Assembly: GCF_003006155.1 (NCBI RefSeq)
Contig: NZ_CP023559.1
Coordinates: 2,418,001-2,482,000 of the forward strand
DNA length: 64,000 bases
From: Salinicola tamaricis
GTDB taxonomy: Bacteria > Pseudomonadota > Gammaproteobacteria > Pseudomonadales > Halomonadaceae
Reading direction: 5' to 3'
Under the pieces are notes generated by a model. That model saw nothing but the letters and a program-made list of their open reading frames with translations, did not search any database and had not been told where the DNA came from. The first letter of the stretch is position 1; every line of letters begins with the position of its first letter. Shown piece by piece: positions 1 through 14,727 of this stretch. Position numbers and translations under genes: made by a program.

Positions 1-873
1 GGCTTACCCGCAGCGCCTCCCGCAGGGCGATGCCGCTGCGGGTGAGGATCGCCAGGGTGCGGGTCAGGCGCCCGGTGTCGAGTAGCCGGATCAGCTCGCC
101 CAGGCGCGGCAGACCGAGCAGCAGGGCGTCGAGCCTTGCCCGCGGCGCCGGGCGCCGCAGTACCCGTGCCGCCAGCGGTACGCTCAGCAGCAATAGCGCT
201 AGCAGCCATGGGCCCAGGCTCAGCATCAGGTGGGAAAGAGTGATCATCAGCCGGGTCAGCCACGGCAGCGCCATGTCGGAGCGCTCGAACTGCTGCGCCA
301 GGCGTGGCACCACCCAGGTCATCAGCCCGCTCACCACCGCCAGCGAGACCCCTGCCAGTACCAGCGGATAGACCAGCGCGGTGCGCGCCTTCTGGCGCTG
401 CGCCTGGACCCGTTCCAGATGGTCGGCCAGGCGTTCGAGCACCAGCGCCAGGCGTCCGGCGCGCTCGCCGGCGGCGACCAGCGAGCGGTAGAGCAGGTCG
501 AAGCTCGCGTGGGGCTTCAGGCTGTCGGCCAGCGAGTGGCCTTCGCGCACCCGAGTGCCCACCGCCAGCGCAGCGCCCGCTCGCGCTGGCGCTCGGCCTG
601 GCGGGTGAGGGCGTCGAGGGCGTCGCTGAGCGGGATGCCGGCGTCGATCAGCGTCGCCAGCTGGCGCGTGAGCAGCGCCAGGCTGGTGGTATCGAGGCGC
701 CCACGGCCCGCGCTGCGACCCGCGGCATCGGCGCTACGCACCAGCGCCAGGCGGCGCGGAAACAGACCACGCTCGTGCAGCAGCTGGCGCGCCTGACGCT
801 CGCTCTCAGCCTGCAGCACGTCGCGCTGGCGGCGGCCGTCGGGGCTCAGGGCCAGATAGCGATAGGTGGGCAT
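1..873 (-). CDS. gspF: Type II secretion inner-membrane platform protein GspF (3' end outside window, frameshifted)
   Basis: GspF is the polytopic inner-membrane platform protein that couples the GspE ATPase to pseudopilus assembly. The N-terminus (MPTYRYLALSPDGRRQRDVL) is typical of the family, and the frame contains the first T2SSF helical domain. The frame breaks near 565-580; after a one-base shift it resumes as a GspF-like sequence (TRVREGHSLADS, then helices and TGRLTRTLAIL) down to base 1. The ATG at 873 is preceded by GGAGAG. It follows gspE after a 126-base gap that holds a GCCCGTCA/TGACGGGC inverted repeat (905-912/929-936). The C-terminal domain lies beyond the window. Identity is secure; the break is probably a sequencing error. 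Confidence 0.88.
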
Positions 874-999
874 CGACTCTCCCCAGTAGCGATGTCGATA
901 TGACGCCCGTCACGCATCGCGACGGCCATGACGGGCATCGATGGCGCCGTAGTCTGACCCACGGTCGATGGCAGTTTGAGGTCAGCGCGGGCCGCGCGC

Positions 1000-2508
1000 T
1001 CAGCGGTGGATCGCACGCAGCACCTCGTCGAGGGCGGTTTCGCCCGCTGCCAGCCGCGCCAGCGCCGCCTGCGCCAGGCTCTGGGCGCCGGCCTGGCCGA
1101 AGGCGTACTCGGCCAGCGCCGCCTCCGGGGCGCGTTCGTGGATCATGCCGGCCAAATGGGCGTCAATGGGGATGAACTCGTAAAGCCCCAGGCGCCCGCG
1201 ATAGCCGCTGTGGTCGCAGCTCTCGCAGCCCTGGGGCTCGGCCAGCCGCGACAGCGTCTCGATGCCGGGCAGCCACTGGGCGTCGTCGGCTCGGCGCGGG
1301 CGCCACTCGCAGCACGCCGGGCACAGCCGACGCACCAGGCGCTGCGCCATCACTCCCTTGAGGCTGGTCGCCAGCAGAAACGGCTCGATGCCCATGTCGC
1401 GCAGGCGCGCGATCGCTCCCAGCGCACTGTTGGTGTGCAGGGTCGAGAGCACCAGGTGGCCGGTGAGACTCGACTGCACCGCGGTGGCGGCGGTCTCCAG
1501 ATCGCGGATCTCGCCGATCATGATCACATCCGGGTCCTGGCGCAGGATGGCGCGCAGGCCCCGGGCGAAGGTCAGCCCGGCATGGGGGTTGACCGGGGTC
1601 TGCCCGATACCGGGGATGGCGTACTCCACCGGGTCCTCGACGGTGAGAATGTTGCGGCTGCGGTCGTTGAGCGCATTGAGGCTGGCGTAGAGGGTGGTGG
1701 TCTTGCCCGAGCCGGTGGGCCCGGTGTTGAGCAGGATGCCGTTGGGCTGCTCGAGTACCCGGCGGTAGCGCTCGAGCACGGCCGGCGGCATGCCCAGGCG
1801 GTCGAGGTCGAGCAGCGCGGCGTGCTTGTCGAGCAGACGCATCACCACCCGCTCGCCGTGGATGCCGGGCAGGGTAGAGACGCGGATATCGACGTCGCGG
1901 CCGGCGGCGCGCACGGTGATGCGGCCATCCTGGGGCTGGCGCTTCTCGGCGATGTCGAGCCGCGCCATCACCTTGATTCGCGAGATCAGCACCGGCGCCA
2001 GCACCCGCGGCGGACGCAGCGCCTCGCGCATGGCGCCATCCACCCGCAGCCGGATCACCAGCTCGCGCTCGAACGGCTCGACGTGGATGTCTGACGCGGA
2101 CAGGCGCAGGGCCTCGGAGAAGACGCCGTTGATCAGCCGGATCACCGGCGCTTCGTTCTCGCTCTCGAGCAGATCCTCGGCGCGCGGCAGCTCCTGCATC
2201 AGGCTGTCGAGGTCGACGTGCTCGGCCAGGCCCTCCAGCAGCGCCGCGTTGTCGGCGCGTTCACCGTCGTGCAGCGCGGCCAGACGCGCCTCGAAGGTGT
2301 CGCCATCGAGCCACTCGCAGCCTTCGGCGCGGCCCAGGCGGCGCTGGATATCCTGTAGCACCTCGAGCTGCAGCGGCGATGGCGTGTCGCGGCACAGCAG
2401 GCGGTAACCCTGCGTGCCCGGGGCCAGCGCCACCCCGGCACGCTTGGCCAGTCGATAGGGCAGCGGCGCGAGGTCGTCGCCGGCGCTGAAGGCCGCGGTC
2501 GCGGTCAT
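1000..2508 (-). CDS. gspE: Type II secretion ATPase GspE
   Basis: This is the cytoplasmic hexameric ATPase that powers type II secretion. It is 502 residues and unbroken. Visible features are the Walker A motif GPTGSGKTTTLYASL, the Asp box (NILTVEDPVEY), a Walker B region (DPDVIMIGEIRD), the His box (STLHTNSALGAI) and a C-terminal tetracysteine zinc motif (CPAC...CESC), which marks GspE rather than a PilB-type ATPase. The frame is open upstream to 2685, but the ATG at 2508 is chosen because it gives a normal GspE N-terminus and because the probable gspD stop overlaps it as ATGA. It lies between gspD and gspF in the same operon. Confidence 0.93.
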   Translation of the reverse strand: MTATAAFSAGDDLAPLPYRLAKRAGVALAPGTQGYRLLCRDTPSPLQLEVLQDIQRRLGRAEGCEWLDGDTFEARLAALHDGERADNAALLEGLAEHVDLDSLMQELPRAEDLLESENEAPVIRLINGVFSEALRLSASDIHVEPFERELVIRLRVDGAMREALRPPRVLAPVLISRIKVMARLDIAEKRQPQDGRITVRAAGRDVDIRVSTLPGIHGERVVMRLLDKHAALLDLDRLGMPPAVLERYRRVLEQPNGILLNTGPTGSGKTTTLYASLNALNDRSRNILTVEDPVEYAIPGIGQTPVNPHAGLTFARGLRAILRQDPDVIMIGEIRDLETAATAVQSSLTGHLVLSTLHTNSALGAIARLRDMGIEPFLLATSLKGVMAQRLVRRLCPACCEWRPRRADDAQWLPGIETLSRLAEPQGCESCDHSGYRGRLGLYEFIPIDAHLAGMIHERAPEAALAEYAFGQAGAQSLAQAALARLAAGETALDEVLRAIHR

Positions 2509-4744
2509 GGCGCCAGGCTCCCAGGCGGCTGCGCTGGTCCGGGAAGAGCGCGCTCCAGCGCGGCTGACCCGGCGTGCTCGGCGCCGCGCTAGCCATACCC
2601 GCGCCAGTCGAAGGCGTACCGCCGGCCGAAGATGAGCCGCCGGCCGCTGTGGTGGCCGCTTCCCACGGCGCCAGCGCTTGGTCATCGTCGAAGCCGGCGA
2701 GCAGCTGCTGGGCGCGCATGTAGCGGTACTTGTCGGCGGTGGCGCTGTCCATCTGGGCGGCGTCGCGCAGCACCCGGGCGCGGATGAACACCATCAGGTT
2801 GCGCTTCTCCTGCTCGTCGCGGTTGTACTGGAACAGCTTGCCGATCAGCGGGATGTCGCCCAGTAGCGGCACCTGGGCCGAGCTCGAGTTGCCGGCGTTG
2901 CTGATCAGCCCGCCGAGCACCACGATGCCGCCGTCGCGAGTGATCACCGAGGTCTCGATTTCGCGCTTGTTGGTGACCACGTCGGAGGCCTGGACATTGG
3001 GATCGATCGACGACACCTCCTGAACGATGTCCATGCGAATGGTGTTGTCGGAGCTGATCGAGGGGCGGATGCGCAGGCTGACCCCGATATCCTCGCGCTG
3101 GATGATCTGGTAGGGGTTCTCGTTGAAGGTCGTGGAGCCGGTGACGAAAGGCACCTCCTGGCCCACCAGGATGTAGGCCTGGGCGTTGTCGAGGGTGGTC
3201 AGCGAGGGCGTCGACAGCAGATTGGTCTCGCTGTCGCTCTGCAGCGCGCCGAGCAGGGCGGCGAAGCTCACGCCGCTGTCGCTGACCCGGCCCACCCCGG
3301 CGCTGACCCCGGTGATGCTGCCGAGCAGCCGCGCCAGCTGGCTGGTGTCGTTGCGCGCGGCGGCGCCGGCGATGGCGTTGATCCCCGGCTGGCCGTCGGC
3401 GGCGTAGTTGAACCCGCCCACCGGCACCGTGCCGCTGCCGGAGAGATCGCCGAACAGCCACTGCACGCCCAGGCGCTTGGCGCGCGACTCGGTGATCTCG
3501 GCGATGATCGCTTCCACCGCTACCTGGGCGCGGCGGATATCGAGCTTCTTGATGATGCTGGCGTAGGCGTCGAGCCGCGCCGGCGGGCCGATCAGTACCA
3601 GGGCGTTGGTCGAGGGGTGGACAGCGAAGCCGACCGCGTCGTCGCCGCTGCCGAGGGTGCCGGCGAGCGCGGCGTTGCGGCTGGTGGCGTCCGGTAGCGC
3701 AGGCAGCCCGCTGCCGTTGCTACCCATGCCGCTGCTTGCGCTGGTGAGGCTGCCGCCCTGCAGGGCACCGCCACCACTGCCGGCGCGCTGCAGCAGTTGC
3801 TGTACCTGACTCTGGGGGTTGGCGCTGCCCGTGTTCTGGGCGCGGTCGCCGGTCAGCCCGGCGAGCACTGAGACCACCGATTCGGCGCTGACGTTGTCCA
3901 GATAGATCACCCGGGTGTTGCGCTGCTGTGCTTCGGCCTGGGGCTTGTCCAGCGAGGCGGCGAGCTGGCGCACCCGGGCCAGCCCAGCGGGGTCGCCGTA
4001 GGCCACCAGAGCGTTGGCGCGCGGATTGGCCACCACCTTCACCTGGCCGCCGCCCTCGCGCTGCATCAGCGTATCCAGGGTGCCGGCGAGTTCATCGGCG
4101 GAGGCGTGCTCGAGCGGCAGTACCGCGGCCTGGAGATCGCGCTGGCGGTCGAGACGCTGGGCCAGTTGGGTCAGTCGCTGGAGGTTGTCACGCCAGTCGG
4201 TGACCACCACCAGATGACTCTCCGGCCATGGCGTGACCGTGCCCACCTGGCTGTCGACCAGCGGCTGCAGCACGCCGGCCAGAGTGGCGGCGTCGAGGTT
4301 GCGCGTGGCGATCACGCTGGTGGCGACATTGCCCCCCTGGGCGTTGTCACCAAGCGGTAGCGGCTGGGTGCGCGAGGCCTGGGCCGGCACGATGCGCACC
4401 TGGCCGTCGGCGAGCGGCACCGTGGCGTAGCCGTTGATCTGCAGTTCGTTCTGGAACAGGCGGTAAAGCTCGTCGGCGCTCAGCCGGCGCTGGCTGGTCA
4501 ACGAGATGTTGCCCTGTACCCGCGGGTCGACGATGAAGGCGTGGCCGGTGATTCGCCCCACGCTGTCGATGAATTCGCGCAGGCTGGTCTGCTGGAAGTC
4601 GACGTCGTAGCGCGGCGTGGCGTCCGCTGCCGTGGTGCTGATGTCATCCCCGGGCGTCTGGGGCTGGGTCTGTGACTGGGCCGGGGTCGGGAGCAGCAGG
4701 GCCAGCAGCAGCGTGATCACCAGTCGATACGGCTGGGGTCTCAT
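2505..4744 (-). CDS. gspD: Type II secretion outer-membrane secretin GspD
   Basis: GspD forms the outer-membrane secretin channel. A signal peptide covers about residues 1-25 (LVITLLLALLLPTPAQSQ). An N0 domain follows (DVDFQQTSLREFIDSVGRI), then N1-N3 repeats, a Ser/Gly-rich insert and the secretin core with VGQEVPF, VTNKREIETSVITRDGGIVVLGGL and VPLLGDIPLIGKLF. As read, the frame continues past gspE's start to 2261. One base missing in a GGG run near 2525 would instead end GspD at the TGA at 2505-2507, overlapping gspE's ATG. That shorter end is taken because gspC/gspD overlap in the same way. No S-domain or pilotin gene is visible. Confidence 0.9.
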
Positions 4745-5247
4745 GGGGATGACTCCGAAAGCGTGGATGAAGTGGCGGCCGGTGTGCTCGGCCCGACGCG
4801 GACGATGGCGCCGCTGGGGACCGTGTCAGGCTCGGGCCAGGCCAGGCGCTCCAGGCGCCCATCGCGGGACAGCACCACGCCTTCGCTATCGATACGCGCC
4901 AGGGTGATGCCTGCGGCGATGCGATCCCCCGGCATCAGCGCGCGCTGACCGTCGGGGGTCGCCAGCACCACCAGCGAGTTCGCGCCTCGGCTCAGCGCCC
5001 GGCCGACCACCTGGTAGGGCAGGTCGGTGAGCGGGATGCGCGTGTCCGCCGCGATGGCCTGCGGCTGCCAGGCGGTGGGCACCGGCGGCAGCGCGGCGGG
5101 GTCGAGGATGAAGGTCGTCGGCGCCGAGACGGACGCGGCAGGCGCCAGCAGTCGTGCCGCGCCGCTCAGCGCTTGGGCCGCCAGCCACGCCAGCAGACAC
5201 AGCGCCAGCCACCGTGCCGGGGCGCTCAGCCAGGCCGGGGGCGTCAT
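4741..5247 (-). CDS. gspC: Type II secretion inner-membrane protein GspC (short form)
   Basis: GspC links the inner-membrane platform to the secretin. The product is about 168 residues: one transmembrane helix (WLALCLLAWLAAQALSGAARLL) followed by a periplasmic homology region (PYQVVGRALSRGANSLVVLATPDG ends the first half) that binds the N0 domain of GspD. It stops soon after the homology region, so it lacks the PDZ or coiled-coil domain carried by longer GspC proteins. The ATG at 5247 is chosen because its ATGA overlaps the stop of the upstream SoxB-like gene, and its own stop overlaps gspD's start. The open frame runs upstream to 5373 without a better start. Confidence 0.85.
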   Translation of the reverse strand: MTPPAWLSAPARWLALCLLAWLAAQALSGAARLLAPAASVSAPTTFILDPAALPPVPTAWQPQAIAADTRIPLTDLPYQVVGRALSRGANSLVVLATPDGQRALMPGDRIAAGITLARIDSEGVVLSRDGRLERLAWPEPDTVPSGAIVRVGPSTPAATSSTLSESSP

Positions 5248-7001
5248 ACGCTCAGACGCGCCTGCGGATGCCAGCCGGGATGCCCCTCGACGTAACGTGC
5301 CTCGACGCTCGGTGGCGTGGGAGCCGGCGGGGTGCCGCCGTGGTCGTTGAGATAGCGCTCCAGGCGCTGCCACAGCGGTTCGCCGCCGGCCTGGGGGCGG
5401 GCGCTGAAGCTGCGCCAGGTGATTCCGCCGGGCAGTGCATCGAGATGCGCGCGTTCTCCCGCGGCGGCGCCGTAGTCGAGCATCCAGTGGGTCGCCGAGA
5501 GGCGCGGCAGGTCGCGGCTGTCATTGAGGATCAGCGGCAGGCCTAGACTGCTGTCCAGCGCGCGTTCGAGCAGACGCTTCAGCGCGTCGGGGTCCGGCGC
5601 GAGATCGACGACCCGCGCCGGATGGCCGCCGCTCAGGCGCCACAGATGGTCGCGGGTGATCGTCTCGCCCGGGGCCAGCAGGGTGTCGTGGCGCAGCCCC
5701 GGGAGCAGGGCGCGGGTGGCATCGCTATTGGCACTGAGGGCGGCGGCGATCAGGCCGTCCCAGCTGCCGCCGACGCTGTCGCGGCGCCATAGCCAGCCGG
5801 GGGCGCTGCCCAGCGGGCGGTCGAGCCAGCCGGCATAGGGCGCGCGCAGGGCGTCGAAGCGTGTCTGGTGTTCCGCTGCCGCGGCGTCCGGCGTGACGTC
5901 GTTGCGCTGGAAATCGGCGTGGATCTGCCAACCGCTCTGGGTACTGCGACAGCTGAGATGAAAGAAGCCGCTGGCGTGGCTGCCGGGGAGACACAGTGGT
6001 ACCGGGGCGCCGTGGGGGGTGTCCACCGCGATCAGCGTGGGCCAGAAATCCTGGCCGCGGGCGCCTAGCACCAAGTCGACTCGCGGCAGCGTTCCGGCCA
6101 GCCAGCGTGCGGTGGCGCTGCCGGTGTCGGCCAATAGCACCACCAGATCGGCGCCTTCGGCGGCCTTGGCCACGCTCTCGGCCAGGGATCGGTACCACTG
6201 ATCGAGCGGGCGGGTCTCGTCCAGGGCGTTGGGGTCGCTGGCGCCGACCACCGCCACCTGGACGCCATCGCGTTCGAAGCGGGTCGCCACGCTGACGCCG
6301 GCGGGTGGCGCGGCCAGATTGCCCAGCACCGGGCGCGCGTAGTCGCGTAGAGCGCCGGGGCGCGCTGTGGCCAGAGTACGCGCTCGTCGCTGCTGACCCG
6401 GGCATCGCTGGCGAGCAGGCGGCTGGCGGCGACGCCGGCGCTGCCGTTGGCGAGATGCCCCAGGCCGCTGCCGCTCCAGCACTGGCCGTTCTCCAGGGTC
6501 AGAGTGCTCTTGGCGCCGAGTTCACGGCGCAGCCGCGCGAGTTGGGCGGCCAGGCCGCCATAGCCGGCGGTGTGGCGCCGCGCGGCGCTGCGAGGCGTAT
6601 AGAGGTCGGCCCATTCGGCGCCGGCACTGCCGACCAGCGTGGTCACGCCGTCCGCGGTGGCCCAGGGGGCGGCGCCGAGCAGTTCCGCCGGGCCGAGATA
6701 GGTGGCGGGGGCGACGATCCGCGTGGGACCGAGACACTCCAGGGTATCGGCGACGTAGAGCAGCTCGACCTGGTGTCCCGGTGTCGGTGCGCGTGCCGTG
6801 CGCGTCGAGATCGAAGACGTGGCGCAGCCGCCCAGCCCGGTACCGAGCAGCGCACCACCCAGGGCCGACGAGGCGACGGCGGATCGGGTCGCAGCGCCGG
6901 CCGTCGTTGGCCCGAGGGTCAATGGTCGGGACGCTGTTGGCCGGGGCGTCGATGGCTGGGGCGTCGATGGCCGGAGCGTCTATGGAAAGGGGGTCAGTCA
7001 T
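5244..7001 (-). CDS. SoxB/5'-nucleotidase-family exported protein with degenerate metal site
   Basis: The C-terminal two thirds follow the SoxB/UshA plan closely: a second-domain region with APYAGWLDRPLG, LWRRDSVGGSWDGLIAAAL, LLPGLRHDTLLAPGETIT and a final Tyr/Gly-rich region. In the first domain, positions that carry metal ligands in SoxB are replaced: FTDxH reads VADTL, DGGDTW reads ENGQCW, the GHWEF region lacks the His, SHNG reads ADTG, and GHTHD reads GARGQD. Catalysis is therefore doubtful. The N-terminus has three IDAPA repeats, an Arg-rich stretch and a small-residue hydrophobic segment ending LGGC, suggesting Tat or lipoprotein export. Frameshifts lie near 6360 and within the signal region (about 6850-6900). 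The start at 7001 has GGGAG upstream. No sox genes are nearby. Confidence 0.7.
6939..6983. repeat. Three 15-bp tandem repeats in the 5' end of the SoxB-like gene
   Basis: Units at 6939-6953, 6954-6968 and 6969-6983 are near-identical (GGCCGGGGCGTCGAT on the plus strand, with two or three substitutions). On the coding strand they encode IDAPAIDAPAIDAPA just after the start codon. The length is a multiple of three, so copy number can change without breaking the frame. Confidence 0.85.
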
Positions 7002-7064
7002 GGGGCTCCCGCGAATGATCCAACGCGGCGCACGGTCTTCGCCGCCGCCGGACTCGGCATCCTA

Positions 7065-7093
7065 ATGACTGGGAGATGACGGTTTCGTGACGC
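7065..7093 (-). promoter_or_regulatory. Pho-box-like direct repeats (three units) facing the SoxB-like/gsp operon
   Basis: On the minus strand three 7-mers, GCGTCAC (7093-7087), CCGTCAT (7082-7076) and CAGTCAT (7071-7065), are spaced exactly 11 bp apart, matching the CTGTCAT-N4-CTGTCAT form of PhoB sites at 5, 6 and 6 of 7 positions. The array ends 64 bp upstream of the chosen start at 7001. A weak CATTAG could serve as -10. Binding by PhoB is inferred. Confidence 0.55.
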
Positions 7094-7120
7094 CGCCAGG
7101 GCTCTGGCTCTGCCGCCAAG

Positions 7121-7138
7121 TCGTCATGGGGTTGTCAC
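7121..7138 (+). promoter_or_regulatory. Pho box upstream of phoX
   Basis: TCGTCAT-GGGG-TTGTCAC fits the 7-4-7 spacing of PhoB sites, with 5 and 6 of 7 matches to CTGTCAT/C. A TAAGTT or CTAAGT hexamer begins about 9-10 bp downstream, where the -10 of a PhoB-dependent promoter is expected. A hairpin CCCGGTGA/TCACCGGG (7172-7193) lies in the presumed leader. Confidence 0.6.
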
Positions 7139-7257
7139 GTTGCTGCTCTAAGTTGCCTCCGGGTAACGCAGCCCGGTGACCGCATTCACCGGGACGCCAA
7201 GTGGCCGGCGGCGCGCATCGCCGGCCCGGGCGCCATGGCATCAGTCGACCGTCATTA

Positions 7258-9475
7258 GTGGATCACTCACAGAGAGGGGACACCCCAGAGCAAGGAAATC
7301 GAGGATCATCGCGTTCCAACCAGAGCGGCAACGAGCCGTTCACGTCGGTACTCTCCCGCCGTGTCTCGCGTCGCGGCATCATGCAGGGAGGCGCCGGACT
7401 GGCCGCCATGGGCCTGCTCGGCGGGTTCGGTCTGGCCGGTTGCAGCAGTGACGATAGCAACGACAACGGCAGCGCCGGCGGCGGCTCTTCAGAAGCCACG
7501 CCGCTGGCGCTGGCGTTCGCCTCGATTCGCGGTTCGCGCACCAATGGGGTGGTGGTGCCCGAAGGCTATGTCGCCCAAGTGGTGATCCCCTGGGGGACGC
7601 CGCTCGACAACAGCGTTGGCGCCTGGTCCGCGGACCGCAGCGTGACGCCCGACTACCAGGCGGCCAGCGTGGGCATGAACCACGACGGCATGCACAACTT
7701 CGCACTGAGCGAAGAGAGCGCCTCGCGCGAGTTCATCATGGCGCTCAACAATGAATATATCGACCAGGATGCGCTGTGGGCGCCTCAGGGTGGCCCGACC
7801 AATGCTTCCAGCGGCGCGCGCCCGGCCGACGAGGTACGCACCGAAATCAACGCCCACGGCGTGACCCTGGTCAAGCTGATGCTCGATGCCAACGGCCAGT
7901 GGCGTGAAGAGCGCGGTTCGCGCTACAACCGTCGTATCACCTCGGCCACGCCGATCGAACTCGCCGGCCCGGTGCGCGGCAGCGACTACGTGATCACCGC
8001 CTACTCCACCAACGGCACGCGCACCCGCGGCACCAACAACAACTGCGCCAACGGCTACACCCCCTGGGGCACCTACCTCACCTGCGAGGAGAACTGGCCC
8101 AATGTCTTCACCAAGTCTAGCGACCGTATCCTGACGACGAGCGCCTGGGTCTGCCCGATGGCCGCGGCCGCTACGGCTGGGAGACCGCCCAGGGGGCACC
8201 AACGGGGAGTTCGCGCGCTTCAACGCCACGCCGAGCGCGGCTTCCGCCGCCGGCGACTACCGCAACGAGCCGCGTACCTACGGCTACGTGGTGGAGATCG
8301 ACCCCTACGGCAACACCGCCAGCGTGGGCACCGAGACCGCCGCGCTCAAGCGCACCCATATCGGTCGTTTCCGCCACGAGGGCTGCTGGCCGGGCAAGGT
8401 GATCGAGGGCGAGCCGGTGGTGTTCTACTCCGGCCACGACTCGCGCAACGAGTACATCTACAAGTTCGTCTCCAAGGCCAAGTGGGACCCCCAGGATGCC
8501 AATCGCCCGGGTCAGGACTACGACCGCCTGGCGATCGGCTCCAAGTACCTCGACGAGGGCACCCTCTACGTGGCGCGCTTCAACGCCGATGGCAGCGGCG
8601 ATTGGCTGCCGCTGACTCCGGACGCTACCACCCAGAACGGCCGGCCGCTGTGGCAGGCGCTCAATCTGGCCAACGAGCGCGATCTCGCCGGGGTCATCAT
8701 CAATACCTGCGACGCCGCCGACTTCATGGGCGCGACGCCGATGGACCGTCCCGAGTGGGGTACCGTCGACCCCTCCTCGGGCGAGGTCTACATGACCCTG
8801 ACCAACAACTCCAAGCGCACTGCCGAAGGCACCGCCGCCACCTACACCGATGGTGGTAGCGACATCGAGGCGCTCGGCGCGGGCTATGCCACGGCCCCGG
8901 TCAATGCCGCCAACCCGCGGCCCGACAACGAGGGTGGCCAGGTCATTCGCTGGCGCGAGCCGTCGCCCGCTGGCACCAACTTCGAGTGGGAAGTGTTCGT
9001 CTTCGGCGCCGCCGAGAATGATCCCGACAACTTCTCGGGTCTCACCGAGCTCAACCAGTTCGCCAGCCCCGATGGCCTGTGGTACGACGATCGCGGCGAC
9101 GGTCGCGGCATCCTGTGGATCGAGACCGATAACGGCTACGACAACGTCACCGACTACACCAACGACCAGGTGCTGGCGGTGGTGCCGGGTAACGTCAGCC
9201 GCGGCCCGGGAGACAAGGCGGTGATCGATGCCGCCGACCAGGCCCAGCTCAAGCGCTTCGCCGTCGGCCCCAACGGCTGCGAGGTGACCGGTATCTTCGC
9301 CACGCCGGACAAGACCTCGCTGTTCATCAACATCCAGCACCCGGGCAACTGGCCGGCCGATCCTGACGCCAACGTGCAGGATGCCACGGTCGCCATCCCG
9401 AAGTCGGGCAGCGTGCGCGCGCGTGCCGCCACCGTGGTGATCCGCAAGCGTGATGGTGGCGAGATCGCGGTCTGA
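7258..9475 (+). CDS. phoX: PhoX-family alkaline phosphatase, Tat lipoprotein-like (two frameshifts)
   Basis: PhoX is a calcium/iron-dependent extracytoplasmic phosphomonoesterase induced by phosphate starvation. The N-terminus carries a twin-arginine signal (SRRGIMQGGAGLAAMGLL) ending in GLAGC, which could be lipidated. Downstream are PhoX hallmarks: VGMNHDGMHNF, the GTYLTCEENWPN motif holding the metal-binding Cys-Glu-Glu, GRFRHEGCW, and the C-terminal FINIQHPG. Frameshifts near 8140 and in a G run near 8190 split the gene. The start is uncertain: GTG 7258 is used because sequence before the Arg pair (SGNEPFTSVLSRR) is conserved in PhoX, but other starts are possible. A terminator follows at 9521. 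Confidence 0.88.
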
Positions 9476-9520
9476 TCCGCGGCTATCTCGTCACGTAAAC
9501 CAACTCGTCACACAAGTTTT

Positions 9521-9545
9521 GGGCCGCGCACAGCGCGGCCCTTTT
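9521..9545 (+). terminator. Rho-independent terminator of phoX
   Basis: A perfect 9-bp stem GGGCCGCGC/GCGCGGCCC with an ACA loop is followed by TTTT, 46 bp after the phoX stop. Confidence 0.85.
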
Positions 9546-9858
9546 GCATTTGGGGCGAGCGCATGGGGGACTTACGCCAGTGGCGGGGGCCGAGGCAACG
9601 GCGCCGCACCCGCTGTCAGCGCGGCCCAGGCACCGCTGAAATGAGCGCGCGCGACGTGAGTACCCGGAACGTAAGAACCCTAGATGTCAGAACAGTGGCG
9701 TGCTGGTCTGGAGAGCGATATAGACCGCGCTCGGCCCCTGGATGAGTGCCAGCGCTGGGGATACGTGATAGGGCTAGCGTCGAGAATCGCTGTAAGGCAG
9801 CGCGGAGTGCTACGGATGGGGGCCTGCCGCGCCCTGGCCGGGCGCGGCGATAGTGATC
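9546..9858. other. Intergenic region between phoX and ppk1
   Basis: These 313 bases separate two convergent genes. Apart from the ppk1-side hairpin listed separately, no coding sequence with a plausible start and composition, and no RNA gene, was recognised. Confidence 0.5.
9826..9848 (-). terminator. GC-rich hairpin downstream of ppk1
   Basis: A perfect 9-bp stem GCCGCGCCC/GGGCGCGGC with a 5-base loop lies 11 bp beyond the ppk1 stop. No U-tract follows on the minus strand, so termination by this hairpin alone is uncertain. Confidence 0.45.
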
Positions 9859-12066
9859 TCAAGCCTGGCTGGCGTAGGCGTAGAGCAGCGTTTCCTGGGC
9901 GCTGACCGGCTCGGCGTCACCGCTCTCCTGCAGGTGGTACTGGCCTTCGCTATCGAGCACCCAGCTCTGGCAGTTGTCGACTAGGTAGGTGTCGAGGTCC
10001 TTGCGCACCTGCTGGGCGACCTTCTTGTCGAGCAGCGGGAAACAGGTCTCGACGCGGTGGAACATGTTGCGCTCCATGGCGTCGGCGCTGGAGCACCACA
10101 CCTCGTGGGCCCCGTCATTGCTGAAGTAGTAGACCCGGGTGTGTTCGAGGAAGCGACCGATGATCGAGCGCACGTGGATGTTCTCGGAGATCCCCGGCAC
10201 GCCAGGGCGCAGGCAACACATGCCGCGGATGATCAGATCGCAGCGCACGCCGGCCTGGGAGGCGCGGTAGAGCGCGCGGATCAGCTTGGGCTCGGTGATG
10301 GCGTTGCACTTGATCACCAGGCGCGCCTTCTTGCCGCTCTCGGCCAGCTTGGCTTCGCGCTCGATCATCGCCACCAGGGTGTCGTGGAGGGTGAAGGGCG
10401 CATGCAGCAGGGTGTTGATCTTGCGCGGCTTGCCCATCCCGGAGAGCTGCTGGAAGACGCGGTGAACGTCCTCGCAGAGCGCCTCGTTGGCGGTCATCAG
10501 GCTGTAGTCGGTGTAGAGCTTGGCGGTCTTGGCGTGGTAGTTGCCGGTGCCGAGATGCGCATAGTGGCGCAGTTCGCCCTTCTCGCGGCGCACGATATGC
10601 ATCATCTTGGCGTGGGTCTTGTAGGCCATCACCCCGTAGATGACGATGGCCCCGGCCTCCTGCAGGCGCGAGGCCAGCGCCAGGTTGTCGGCCTCGTCGA
10701 AGCGTGCCCGTAGCTCGATCACCACGGTCACTTCCTTGCCGCCGCGGGCTGCCTCGACCAGGGCACTGACGATCGAGGAGTCGGCGCCGGTGCGGTAGAG
10801 GGTCTGCTTGATCGCCATCACGTCGCTGTCGCGGGCGGCCTGGCGCAGTAGCTCCTCGACCGGCGTGAACGACTGGAACGGATGGTGCAGCAGGATATCG
10901 CCCTGGCGGATCATCGAGAACAGGTTGACGTCGCCGCGCACCTGCTTGGGCAGCCCCGGGGTGAAGGAGCGGTAGCGCAGGTCGGGTCGCTGGACGTCAT
11001 CCAGCACCGACATCAGCCGGGTCAGGTTGACCGGCCCGTTGACCCGGTAGAGATCCGCCTCGCCGAGCTCGAACTGCTTGAGCAGGAAGTCGATCAGGTT
11101 GTCCGGGCAGTTGTCGGCCACTTCCAGGCGCACGCCGCTGCCGTAGCGTCGAGCCAAGAGCTCGCCGCGCAGCGCCGAGGCAAGGTCCGAAACCTCTTCC
11201 GGGTCGACCGAGAGATCGGCGTTGCGGGTCAGGCGGAACTGATAGCAGCCCTCGACCTCCATGCCGGGAAACACCTCATGGGCATGGGCGTGGATCATCG
11301 ACGACAGGAACACATAGTCGGTGAAGCCTTCTTCGCACAGCGCCTCGGGCAGGCGGATCAGGCGCGGCAGCGAGCGCGGCGCGGGCAGGATAGCCAACCC
11401 GCCCTCGCGGCCGAAGGCGTCGGTACCGTCGAGCTCGACGATGAAGTTGAGGCTCTTGTTGACCAGTCGCGGGAAGGGGTGCGAGGGATCCAGCCCGATC
11501 GGACTGATCACCGGCGCGATCTCTTCCTCGAAGTAGTCGGCGACCCAAGCGGCCTGGGCCGGCGTCCACTGCGCGCGGCGGCGAAAGCGGATGTTCTGCT
11601 CCTCCAGCGCCGGCACCAGGGCATCGTTGAGGATGTGGTACTGGCGATCGACCTGTTCGTGGGCGATGCGCGAAATCTCCTCCAGCGTGCGCGCCGGTGG
11701 CAGGCCATCGGCGCCCACCTCTTCGTTGGCCAGGGCCATCTGGTGCTTGAGCCCGGCGACCCGGATTTCGAAGAACTCGTCCAGGTTGGAGGAGAAGATC
11801 AGCAGGAACATCAGTCGATTGAGCAGCGGATGTGAAGGATCCAAGGACTGCTCGAGCACGCGGATATTGAACTGCAGGTGTGACAACTCGCGGTTGAAGT
11901 AGAGCGTGGGATCGCTCAGGTCCGCCTGCGGCGAGGGGGTCGCCTTGGCGTGGATGCCCTTGCGGGTGCGGTTGACCCGCAGGGGCGGCGAGCTGCCGTC
12001 ATCGACCGGCAAACTGGTGCTGGCGAGTTCTCGACCGGAGCCGGGCGTGTCCTGGGTGTCTGTCAT
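9859..12066 (-). CDS. ppk1: Polyphosphate kinase 1
   Basis: PPK1 reversibly transfers the ATP gamma-phosphate to polyphosphate. The 735-residue product is intact. It starts the conserved region with [19 protein letters not shown], and has [17 protein letters not shown], the phospholipase-D-like segment [15 protein letters not shown] and [18 protein letters not shown], followed by the second His motif near [17 protein letters not shown] and the nucleotide-binding C-terminus. The ATG at 12066 is chosen over upstream in-frame ATGs because GGAGAA sits 6-11 bases before it. Polyphosphate storage fits the phosphate theme of the neighbouring phoX, but ppk1 next to hemB is also the ordinary pseudomonad order. 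Confidence 0.95.
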
Positions 12067-12118
12067 CGACTGTTCTCCACAATGATGTCCCGCACCCGGG
12101 CAGACGCGCCCGCGGTGG

Positions 12119-13337
<1,219 letters not shown>

Positions 13338-13386
13338 CTATCGAGTCGTGCGCGGTTATCAGGGCGCTGGCGTCGGTTCGCCGGGT

Positions 13387-14167
13387 TCAGTGCGTGGTAT
13401 CGGCGTCTGCTTCTTGCGTCCACGCGGCGCCGGCGTACCAGGCGCGCGAACAGGATGCCGACCTCGAACAGCAGCCACATCGGCACCGCCAGCAGGCTCT
13501 GCGAAATGATGTCGGGTGGGGTCAGCAGCATACCCACGACGAAGCAGATCAGGATCACGTAGGGGCGCTTCCTGGTCAGGCTCTTGACGTCGGTGATACC
13601 GGTCCAGATCACCAGAAAGGTGGCGATGGGAATCTCGAACGCCACGCCGAAGGCGAAGAACATCTTCAGCACGAAGTTGAGATAGGCGTTGATGTCCGTC
13701 ATCACCTGCACGTCCTGCGGGCCGGTGTGGACGAAGAAGCTGAACAGCAGCGGAAATACCACGTAGTAGGCGAAGGCCGCGCCGCAGTAGAACAGCACGA
13801 TGCTCGATGCCAGTAGCGGAAAGGCTAACGCCTTCTCATGGCGGTAGAGCCCCGGGGCGATGAAGGCCCAGGCCTGATACAGGATCACCGGCACGGCGGC
13901 GAAGATCGAGACCACCATGGTGAGCTTGAACGGAGCCAGGAACGGCGAGGTCACCTCGGTGGCGATCATGCGCGAGCCCGCCGGCAGCAGTGCGATCAGC
14001 GGCTCGGCGACGAAGCGGTAGATATCGTTGGAGAAGGCGTAGAGCACGGCGAAGATGGCGATCACCACGATCACCGCCTTCATCAGGCGCGAGCGCAGTT
14101 CGATGAGGTGCTCGATCAGCGGGGCCTGCGGTTGCTCTTCCTCCGGTGGGCGTGAGGCGTCACTCAT
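13387..14167 (-). CDS. tatC: Sec-independent protein translocase TatC
   Basis: TatC is the polytopic receptor for twin-arginine signal peptides. The sequence opens with [20 protein letters not shown] and has the usual six membrane segments, with [21 protein letters not shown] and [22 protein letters not shown]. The frame as read continues to 13031 through low-complexity Arg-rich and hemB-antisense sequence. A one-base shift after ARLVRRRR gives a short acidic tail (EADADTTH) and a stop at 13387, which matches the family length (about 259 residues). It overlaps tatB by ATGA. Confidence 0.9.
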
Positions 14168-14727
14168 CGGGTATTCGAATCCTTGTCCTCGGTACCGCTC
14201 GCCGGCGCGGGCAGATCATCCGCGGGTCGTGGCGGCGGATCGGCGGGGGCGGGGGGCGATACGGCGTCGAAGTGCTTCGCCGGGGCTGGGTCATCCGGTT
14301 GCGGCGAGTGTGACGCCGATGCCTGTTCGGACGAAGCGGCGTCGGGCAAAGCGGCGTCGGTCGGCGTCGAGTCGTCCGATGTGGCGCGCGCCGTGCCTGG
14401 GCGAGCTTCGTCGCTGCCGAGGGTCTTCTCAACCGCGTGGCGAGCCCGGCCCACGCCCTCGTCGAGCTGGCGTTGGCCCTGTTCGACCTCCTGCCTGACT
14501 CGGCCGACCCCCTCGTCGAGCTTGCGCTGCTGCTCGGCGAGTTTCTGGCGCAGCTCTTCTGCCTCCAGCTGGGAGGTGATCTCGCGCTGCATGTTGGCGA
14601 CGCTGCGGCGAATGCGGCCGATCCACAGCCCGGCGGTGCGGGCGGCAATGGGCAGGCGCTCCGGCCCCAGCACCAGCAGGCCGACGATGCCGATCAGCAG
14701 CAGTTCGAAAAAGCCGATATCGAACAT
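14164..14727 (-). CDS. tatB: Sec-independent protein translocase TatB
   Basis: TatB is the single-span membrane partner of TatC. The product is 187 residues, with the N-terminal helix [21 protein letters not shown] and the conserved GPERLP, then an amphipathic helix ([18 protein letters not shown]). A long charged coiled coil with KLDEGVGR repeats and a Pro/Ala/Asp-rich disordered tail follow. It sits between tatA and tatC in the usual order. The exported proteins PhoX and probably the SoxB-like protein are likely clients. Confidence 0.95.

Follow-up and report, generated by a model that had tools for sequence, protein, structure and literature searches.

The window analysed here is a stretch of 64,000 nucleotides of the Salinicola tamaricis genome (contig NZ_CP023559.1, positions 2,418,001 to 2,482,000 of the forward strand), in which a gene related to that of the sulfur-oxidation enzyme SoxB lies directly before gspC of a type II secretion system (T2SS) and divergent from phoX (Table 1). 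Gene order identifies it as uxpA, a gene that has so far carried a phosphatase label. Comparison of its relatives points to a pseudo-enzyme whose two-metal site has been rebuilt from other residues, and which accompanies one lineage of T2SS.

Table 1. Features of the uxpA-like locus (window coordinates)
Feature	Position	Strand	Remarks
gspF	2..873	-	frame-split, truncated at the window edge; from sister genome comparison
gspE	1000..2508	-	from sister genome comparison
gspD, secretin	2516..4744	-	from sister genome comparison; TIGR02517 524.7 bits here, in the window genome (G000)
gspC, short form, 168 aa	4741..5247	-	Pfam T2SSC 1.2e-05; 87% identity to sister GspC
ATGA overlap, uxpA-like stop and gspC start	5244..5247	-	forward strand of the window reads TCAT
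uxpA-like gene	5244..7001	-	predicted twin-arginine translocation (Tat)/lipoprotein signal and SoxB-fold domain, most metal ligands gone; three frame pieces in the assembly
Pho-box-like site facing the uxpA-like gene, CCGTCATCTCCCAGTCAT	7065..7082	-	score 12 of 14
Second Pho-box-like site, facing phoX, TCGTCATGGGGTTGTCAC	7121..7138	+	weaker, score 10.5
phoX, divergent neighbour	7290..9475, start approximate	+	alkaline phosphatase, Tat and lipobox signals, three frame pieces

The locus and its reading frames

The overlap between the stop codon of the SoxB-like gene and the start of gspC, read from the letters alone in a first-pass annotation of this DNA, is present as described, and the coupling of the gene to the secretion operon deduced there is supported. 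The gspC product scores 25.6 bits against Pfam T2SSC, slightly below the cut-off of 27, and the 3' piece of phoX matches Pfam PhoX at 1.7e-63. The uxpA-like gene itself is spread over three minus-strand frame pieces (7001-6522, 6922-6065 and 6482-5244), which amounts to two frame changes. These are most likely a matter of the assembly more than of decay, since hemB, phoX and gspF are broken likewise (with uxpA, four of the ten conserved genes compared with the sister genome over window positions 1-14727) and the frame is open, at 567-610 codons from stop to stop, in ten relatives of at least 49% identity. The completeness value of the genome, 93.25, lies below the 96-100 of 17 genomes in the same genus, and this together with the split conserved genes indicates that the assembly probably carries many indels.

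Extent of the family and conservation of gene order

A scan of the species genome collection with two peptide patterns, LTLENGQC and [YF]V[ED]GHPGW, a sampling that favours these motifs, located 68 loci carrying the gene in Salinicola, Halomonas, Kushneria, Modicisalibacter, Litchfieldella, Phytohalomonas, many Pseudomonas, Marinobacterium, Marinospirillum, Terasakiispira and one genome labelled Pantoea. Removal of four fragment loci (L087, L089, L093 and L095) left 64 full-length members. A second set of 38 distinct proteins was obtained by profile search (44 loci, less the short pieces L118 and L125 and duplicates); at least one of the two search patterns also occurs in 37 of these proteins, and the set overlaps the first in species. 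Two of the taxon labels may be wrong: the Pantoea-labelled contig (L078) has a Pseudomonas-like cluster, and a metagenome-assembled genome labelled Pseudomonadaceae (L089) has a Marinospirillum-like one.

The surroundings of the gene are strongly conserved. Downstream and on the same strand lies gspD in 67 of the 68 loci, the remaining one (L093) being cut by a contig end, and phoX is the divergent neighbour in 61; the seven loci without adjacent phoX are five from Marinospirillum and two (L089 and L095) on contigs that start inside the gene. The start codon of gspC overlaps the uxpA stop in 64 of 66 scored loci, with 55 overlaps of 4 nt and nine of 1 nt; ATG serves as the start in 30 of them, and GTG or TTG in the other 34 (L087 has no gspC frame and L093 is cut, the wrong frame was picked in L041, and in L058 the start falls 3 nt past the stop). 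The order of SoxB-like gene and gspC noted in the window therefore recurs in other halomonads, and also in Pseudomonas, Marinobacterium, Marinospirillum and Terasakiispira.

In putida-group loci the order of genes is gspK-phoX-uxpA-gspC-D-E-F-G, where uxpA of P. putida KT2440 is presumably PP_1044. Since the locus tags of P. putida BIRD-1 (gspK 1091, phoX 1093, uxpA 1094 and gspG 1099; PMC5082522, Table 2) run in the same order, the family is identified, by gene order and not by BIRD-1 or KT2440 sequence, as the UxpA of the phosphate-linked T2SS of P. putida. The first-pass annotation had known of no such type II component, and this has to be corrected, because a gene in the same order already bears the name UxpA and is described as a putative phosphatase in PMC5082522. 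The gene name and the phosphatase label are thus prior knowledge.

Relationship to SoxB and fate of the metal site

The window piece matches the NCBIfam model of SoxB, TIGR04486, with E=5.6e-20 and 71.1 bits, and five full-length members (G008, G030, G118, G155 and G586) reach 109.5-157.9 bits, all short of the curated cut-off of 550. With the family profile, SoxB is the best sequence-profile match in the PDB (2e-50). An AlphaFold model of one relative (L028), built on a 64-row alignment, has a mean predicted local distance difference test score (pLDDT) of 86.5 and a predicted template modelling score of 0.88, and its best Foldseek matches are SoxB structures (2wdc and 4uwq; TMq 0.73-0.76, 22-23% identity). 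Profile, model and Foldseek together bear out the expectation of a SoxB-type fold along the whole protein. In a tree of 29 UxpA, 15 SoxB and one nucleotidase-like row, rooted on one distant row, UxpA forms a single clade (100/100) apart from SoxB (99/99), within which Marinospirillum is the first branch. Neither Pfam metallophos nor Pfam 5_nucleotid_C matches the window pieces or the members L028, L053, L081, L094 and L197; a true SoxB (L025) does match 5_nucleotid_C. Ratios of nonsynonymous to synonymous substitution of 0.06-0.27 in ten pairs of relatives show that UxpA is under purifying selection.

The metal site was compared in an alignment of the 64 full-length relatives with 26 true SoxBs, in all 26 of which every ligand residue is kept. 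In UxpA the TDxH motif has become A-D-x-L: the Asp is retained in all 64 members, while the His is Leu in 59 and still His in five, all from Marinospirillum. The Asp of GGD is replaced by Gln, the His of HWE by Ser and the His of SHNG by Asp, each in 64 of 64, and the His pair of GHTHD by Arg (64 of 64) and Gln (63 of 64), with the Glu of HWE kept throughout. Among the profile-found proteins, the D-to-Q, H-to-S, H-to-D and H-to-R replacements are by the same residues in 38 of 38. The description of this protein as stripped of its metal ligands accordingly holds for six positions and fails for the first Asp and the Glu of HWE, which remain. A homologue with an intact metal site in the same context, the finding by which the first-pass annotation would have been refuted, was found neither among the 64 full-length nor among the 38 profile-found proteins.

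Of the 566 alignment columns 72 are invariant, and these include the retained Asp as well as four of the six positions with replaced ligands, so that the site is conserved in its altered state (hypergeometric value of 0.003 when all six replaced positions are counted, or 0.016, for three of five, when the Gln that lies inside a search pattern is set aside). Marinospirillum, the first branch, retains one His and a Gly at the site, which suggests that ligand loss was stepwise. With most of the ligand residues gone in the 64 relatives as against kept in the 26 SoxBs, the preference of the first-pass annotation for a pseudo-enzyme over a thiosulfohydrolase is upheld: UxpA has very probably lost the two-metal activity, a conclusion for which the support is strong and which is far surer than any accessory role discussed below. 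In the literature searched, no description of this ligand loss was found.

Association with one type II secretion lineage

In the window's family 275 genomes were compared; GspD exceeds the cut-off in 41 and UxpA is present in 32, all 32 lying among the 41 (one match of 34 bits, in G001, was dropped from 33, and those in G147, G185 and G186 are partial copies in fragmented genomes). Nine GspD-positive genomes are without UxpA, six of them from one genus and three single (G020, G201-G205, G164, G180 and G212). In six of these nine the GspD locus belongs to another T2SS lineage, with GspE 50-54% identical or unmatched, G202, G203 and G205 lying outside the comparison; in the other lineages examined UxpA was absent. 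In 198 Pseudomonadaceae genomes, the 11 with UxpA (at least 762 bits, ten matches of at most 28.5 bits having been dropped) are the same 11 that have this type of GspD (at least 915 bits), and no GspD of this type was seen without UxpA. UxpA therefore tracks one T2SS lineage, as shown by co-occurrence.

Two ways in which UxpA might fill a gap in the machine were considered and do not hold in general. The length of GspC differs among the UxpA clusters, being 138-191 aa in 46 of 65 loci and 255-317 aa in 19, and the short form is found in most Pseudomonas and in the window's group. UxpA does not generally make up for the C-terminal part that a short GspC lacks, as all 19 loci with a long GspC have it too. 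Nor is it a general stand-in for GspN, as four genomes of the Marinospirillum genus carry both on one contig; beyond those four, GspN exceeds the Pfam cut-off in only one UxpA genome (G214, 39.4 bits, far from gspD), so that outside the Marinospirillum genus UxpA might still replace GspN. A gene of about 240 aa stands after gspM, at the place expected of gspN, in the window genome (G000, L195:9967-10689) and in G030 (L196:2987-3721); no Pfam T2SSN match was found for it, and it is either a divergent GspN or another protein.

Export signals and the C-terminal tail

A twin-arginine motif followed by a lipobox is present in all 64 UxpA proteins under a lenient pattern, a stricter one missing L036, L037 and L039. 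The residue after the lipobox Cys is Ala in 31, Ser in 31 and Thr in two, and never Asp. In Acinetobacter, T2SS-dependent lipoproteins are described as carrying a stretch of Gly/Ser or Asn/Asp after the Cys (PMC12802150), and this motif was scored as the number of residues of one class among the seven after the Cys, more than four being the stricter rule of that paper. At least four such residues occur in eight of 64 UxpA versus 51 of 56 neighbouring PhoX with a lipobox, and more than four in three of 64 versus 31 of 56. The motif being common in PhoX and rare in UxpA, these signals suggest that PhoX leaves the cell envelope's interior for the outside while UxpA is retained inside. Three Halomonas PhoX beside UxpA (L041, L045 and L046) have a twin-arginine signal with no lipobox found, and may for that reason be released rather than anchored. 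In the window, hemB, tatC and tatB (12122-14727) are near neighbours of phoX and uxpA, whose products each have a twin-arginine signal.

At the other end of the protein, GHPGW is present in all 64 members (as GHPGWHP in 61), with its synonymous codons freely varied, and was found in none of the 26 SoxBs; the profile-found proteins keep it, along with the Gln, in 38 of 38. Most residues of this tail fall below pLDDT 50, within the low-confidence part of the L028 model. A conserved and probably flexible tail would fit partner binding.

Phosphate context and the Marinospirillum loci

The score of the Pho-box-like site that faces uxpA in the window was reached by none of 300 shuffles of the intergenic region. 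A site of this kind precedes uxpA in 53 of the 59 loci outside Marinospirillum (shuffle fraction at most 0.05; L033, L040, L043, L046, L052 and L056 fail the test). According to Table 2 of PMC5082522, UxpA of BIRD-1 rises by 3.24 log2 on depletion of inorganic phosphate (Pi) and is undetected in a phoBR mutant. The window genome has another PhoX gene, its frame open, past the other end of the T2SS cluster (L195:1611-3959; G000:C1:2403859-2405844).

Marinospirillum departs from this arrangement. UxpA stays there at the start of gspC without an adjacent PhoX, a Pho box was found in none of the five loci, and five of six genomes of the genus searched have no PhoX match anywhere. A subtilase gene lies directly upstream of uxpA in L197 (6.2e-22), and further upstream in L160, beyond DUF1501 and DUF1800 genes. 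Because Marinospirillum keeps UxpA at gspC with neither PhoX neighbour nor Pho box, UxpA appears to follow the T2SS rather than phosphate, and the genus offers a natural experiment that separates a secretion role from a phosphate role. The roles of secreted client and of phosphate-ester binder, both among those first proposed for the window gene, are weakened by these loci and by the missing sorting motif; the other two, adaptor and pilotin-like factor, stay candidates. A TGA within the profile-matched stretch of three members from the Marinospirillum genus was considered as a selenocysteine codon and rejected, being in L122 and the matching loci an ordinary stop two residues before the end of the profile.

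Proposed role and alternatives

Taken together, these patterns lead us to propose, with about as much confidence as doubt, that UxpA is a metal-free pseudo-enzyme acting as a dedicated, periplasm-facing accessory lipoprotein of one T2SS lineage. It would be exported folded through Tat, lipidated at its N-terminus and kept in the cell envelope facing the periplasm, where it would most likely hold folded, Tat-exported clients near GspC or GspD, these clients being PhoX in most species and other proteins in Marinospirillum. The old two-metal site, where the retained Asp is now joined by conserved Gln, Ser, Asp and Arg, would be used for binding or for structure and not for catalysis. A bolder form of the proposal, which we consider unlikely, makes UxpA an obligate subunit of this lineage derived by gutting a sulfur-oxidation enzyme, in which the SoxB-type channel would grip tails of clients or of the machine without cutting them and the GHPGW tail would dock on GspC or GspD. 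In the SoxB-SoxYZ complex (4uwq), the channel of SoxB reportedly takes the tail of the carrier protein. No other component of a T2SS is known to us to descend from a metallohydrolase.

Several observations weigh against an accessory role. In most species uxpA has PhoX next to it and a Pho box ahead of it, an arrangement that would suit a phosphate role as well, and the Tat and lipobox signals are common to UxpA and PhoX, so the T2SS could be exporting UxpA too as one of its clients. The definition of the sorting motif comes from other species, and its stricter rule is passed by only 31 of the 56 PhoX. The 34 overlaps with GTG or TTG starts are weaker, having the open gspC frame as their support, because any base except C before TGA yields such a start codon. 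The gap between this type of GspD and the next best in the 198 Pseudomonadaceae genomes (665.5 bits) is partly built in, the profile having been trained on UxpA-linked GspDs. GHPGW belonged to one of the search patterns and, as NPG occurs within the last 40 residues in 19 of the 26 SoxBs, the tail may be an old SoxB feature that has changed. Finally, a protein of BIRD-1 in which Pfam metallophos and 5_nucleotid_C domains occur is reported to remain unsecreted, with no statement on whether it is UxpA; neither domain was found in the UxpA members scanned.

The main rival to the accessory role, doubtful in our view though a serious contender, is that the T2SS exports UxpA as a client, which on the surface or as a secreted protein would partner PhoX, either by binding organic phosphate or by activating PhoX, in the manner proposed for ElpS. 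ElpS of Caulobacter crescentus, a lipoprotein made in Pi starvation and encoded beside a T2SS, raises extracellular phosphatase activity when overproduced, apparently without being a phosphatase itself (PMC2996285). The divergent PhoX, the Pho-box-like sites and the PhoBR-dependent rise of BIRD-1 UxpA all agree with such a partnership. The Marinospirillum loci and the rarity in UxpA of the sorting motif of PhoX disagree with it, as does the placing of UxpA in the whole-cell proteome as a "putative intracellular phosphatase" (PMC5082522).

It is rather improbable that the T2SS handles UxpA as an ordinary client whose own function concerns neither phosphate nor the working of the machine, its neighbourhood reflecting client-machine linkage only. 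Its export signals are like those of PhoX, and ElpS illustrates that client-like genes can adjoin T2SS genes (PMC2996285). However, occasional loss or relocation would be expected of such a client, yet the pairing with the GspD type is exceptionless in the 198 Pseudomonadaceae genomes, and in different families uxpA holds its position immediately ahead of gspC.

That UxpA is still an enzyme, using metal-free or one-metal chemistry in the rebuilt pocket, we think very improbable: the invariance of four replaced positions and of the kept Asp, and the retention of Asp66 and Glu187, speak for it, but of the five catalytic-site His four are gone in 64 of 64 members and one in 59. A decaying pseudogene or sequencing artefact, suggested by the two frame changes in the window assembly, is scarcely credible for the window gene in the face of the open frames and purifying selection in relatives and the like splitting of hemB, phoX and gspF, and for the family this reading is refuted.

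Comparison with known systems

UxpA of P. putida BIRD-1 (PPUBIRD1_1094) occupies the same place in its cluster as the gene described here, and is annotated as a 2',3'-cyclic-nucleotide 2'-phosphodiesterase or putative intracellular phosphatase, whereas the family analysed here is without most metal ligands. Work on phosphate scavenging thus gives the name of phosphatase to a protein that very probably has no two-metal activity, and counting it as organic-phosphorus or thiosulfate capacity could mislead. If UxpA serves the T2SS, then the lineage responsible for PhoX export in Pseudomonas would have a partner that has been overlooked.

The likeness to ElpS lies in a Pi-starvation lipoprotein, apparently not a phosphatase, encoded beside a T2SS. 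The two differ in that ElpS reaches the cell surface without the T2SS (PMC2996285), and ElpS is not a UxpA relative by the test with the SoxB model, which left the Caulobacter vibrioides control genome unmatched while matching 10 of 14 controls, ElpS itself not having been aligned. GspN is likewise a T2SS accessory tied to lipoprotein clients, but is described as having a beta-taco fold (PMC12802150), in contrast to the SoxB fold of UxpA, and both proteins are present in the four Marinospirillum-genus genomes. SoxB thiosulfohydrolase remains the closest relative in structure, as the best match both in fold and in sequence profile against the PDB. UxpA differs from it in the change of six of the seven metal-site Asp/His positions in most members, in a score far under the SoxB cut-off, and in neighbours that are T2SS genes and phoX.

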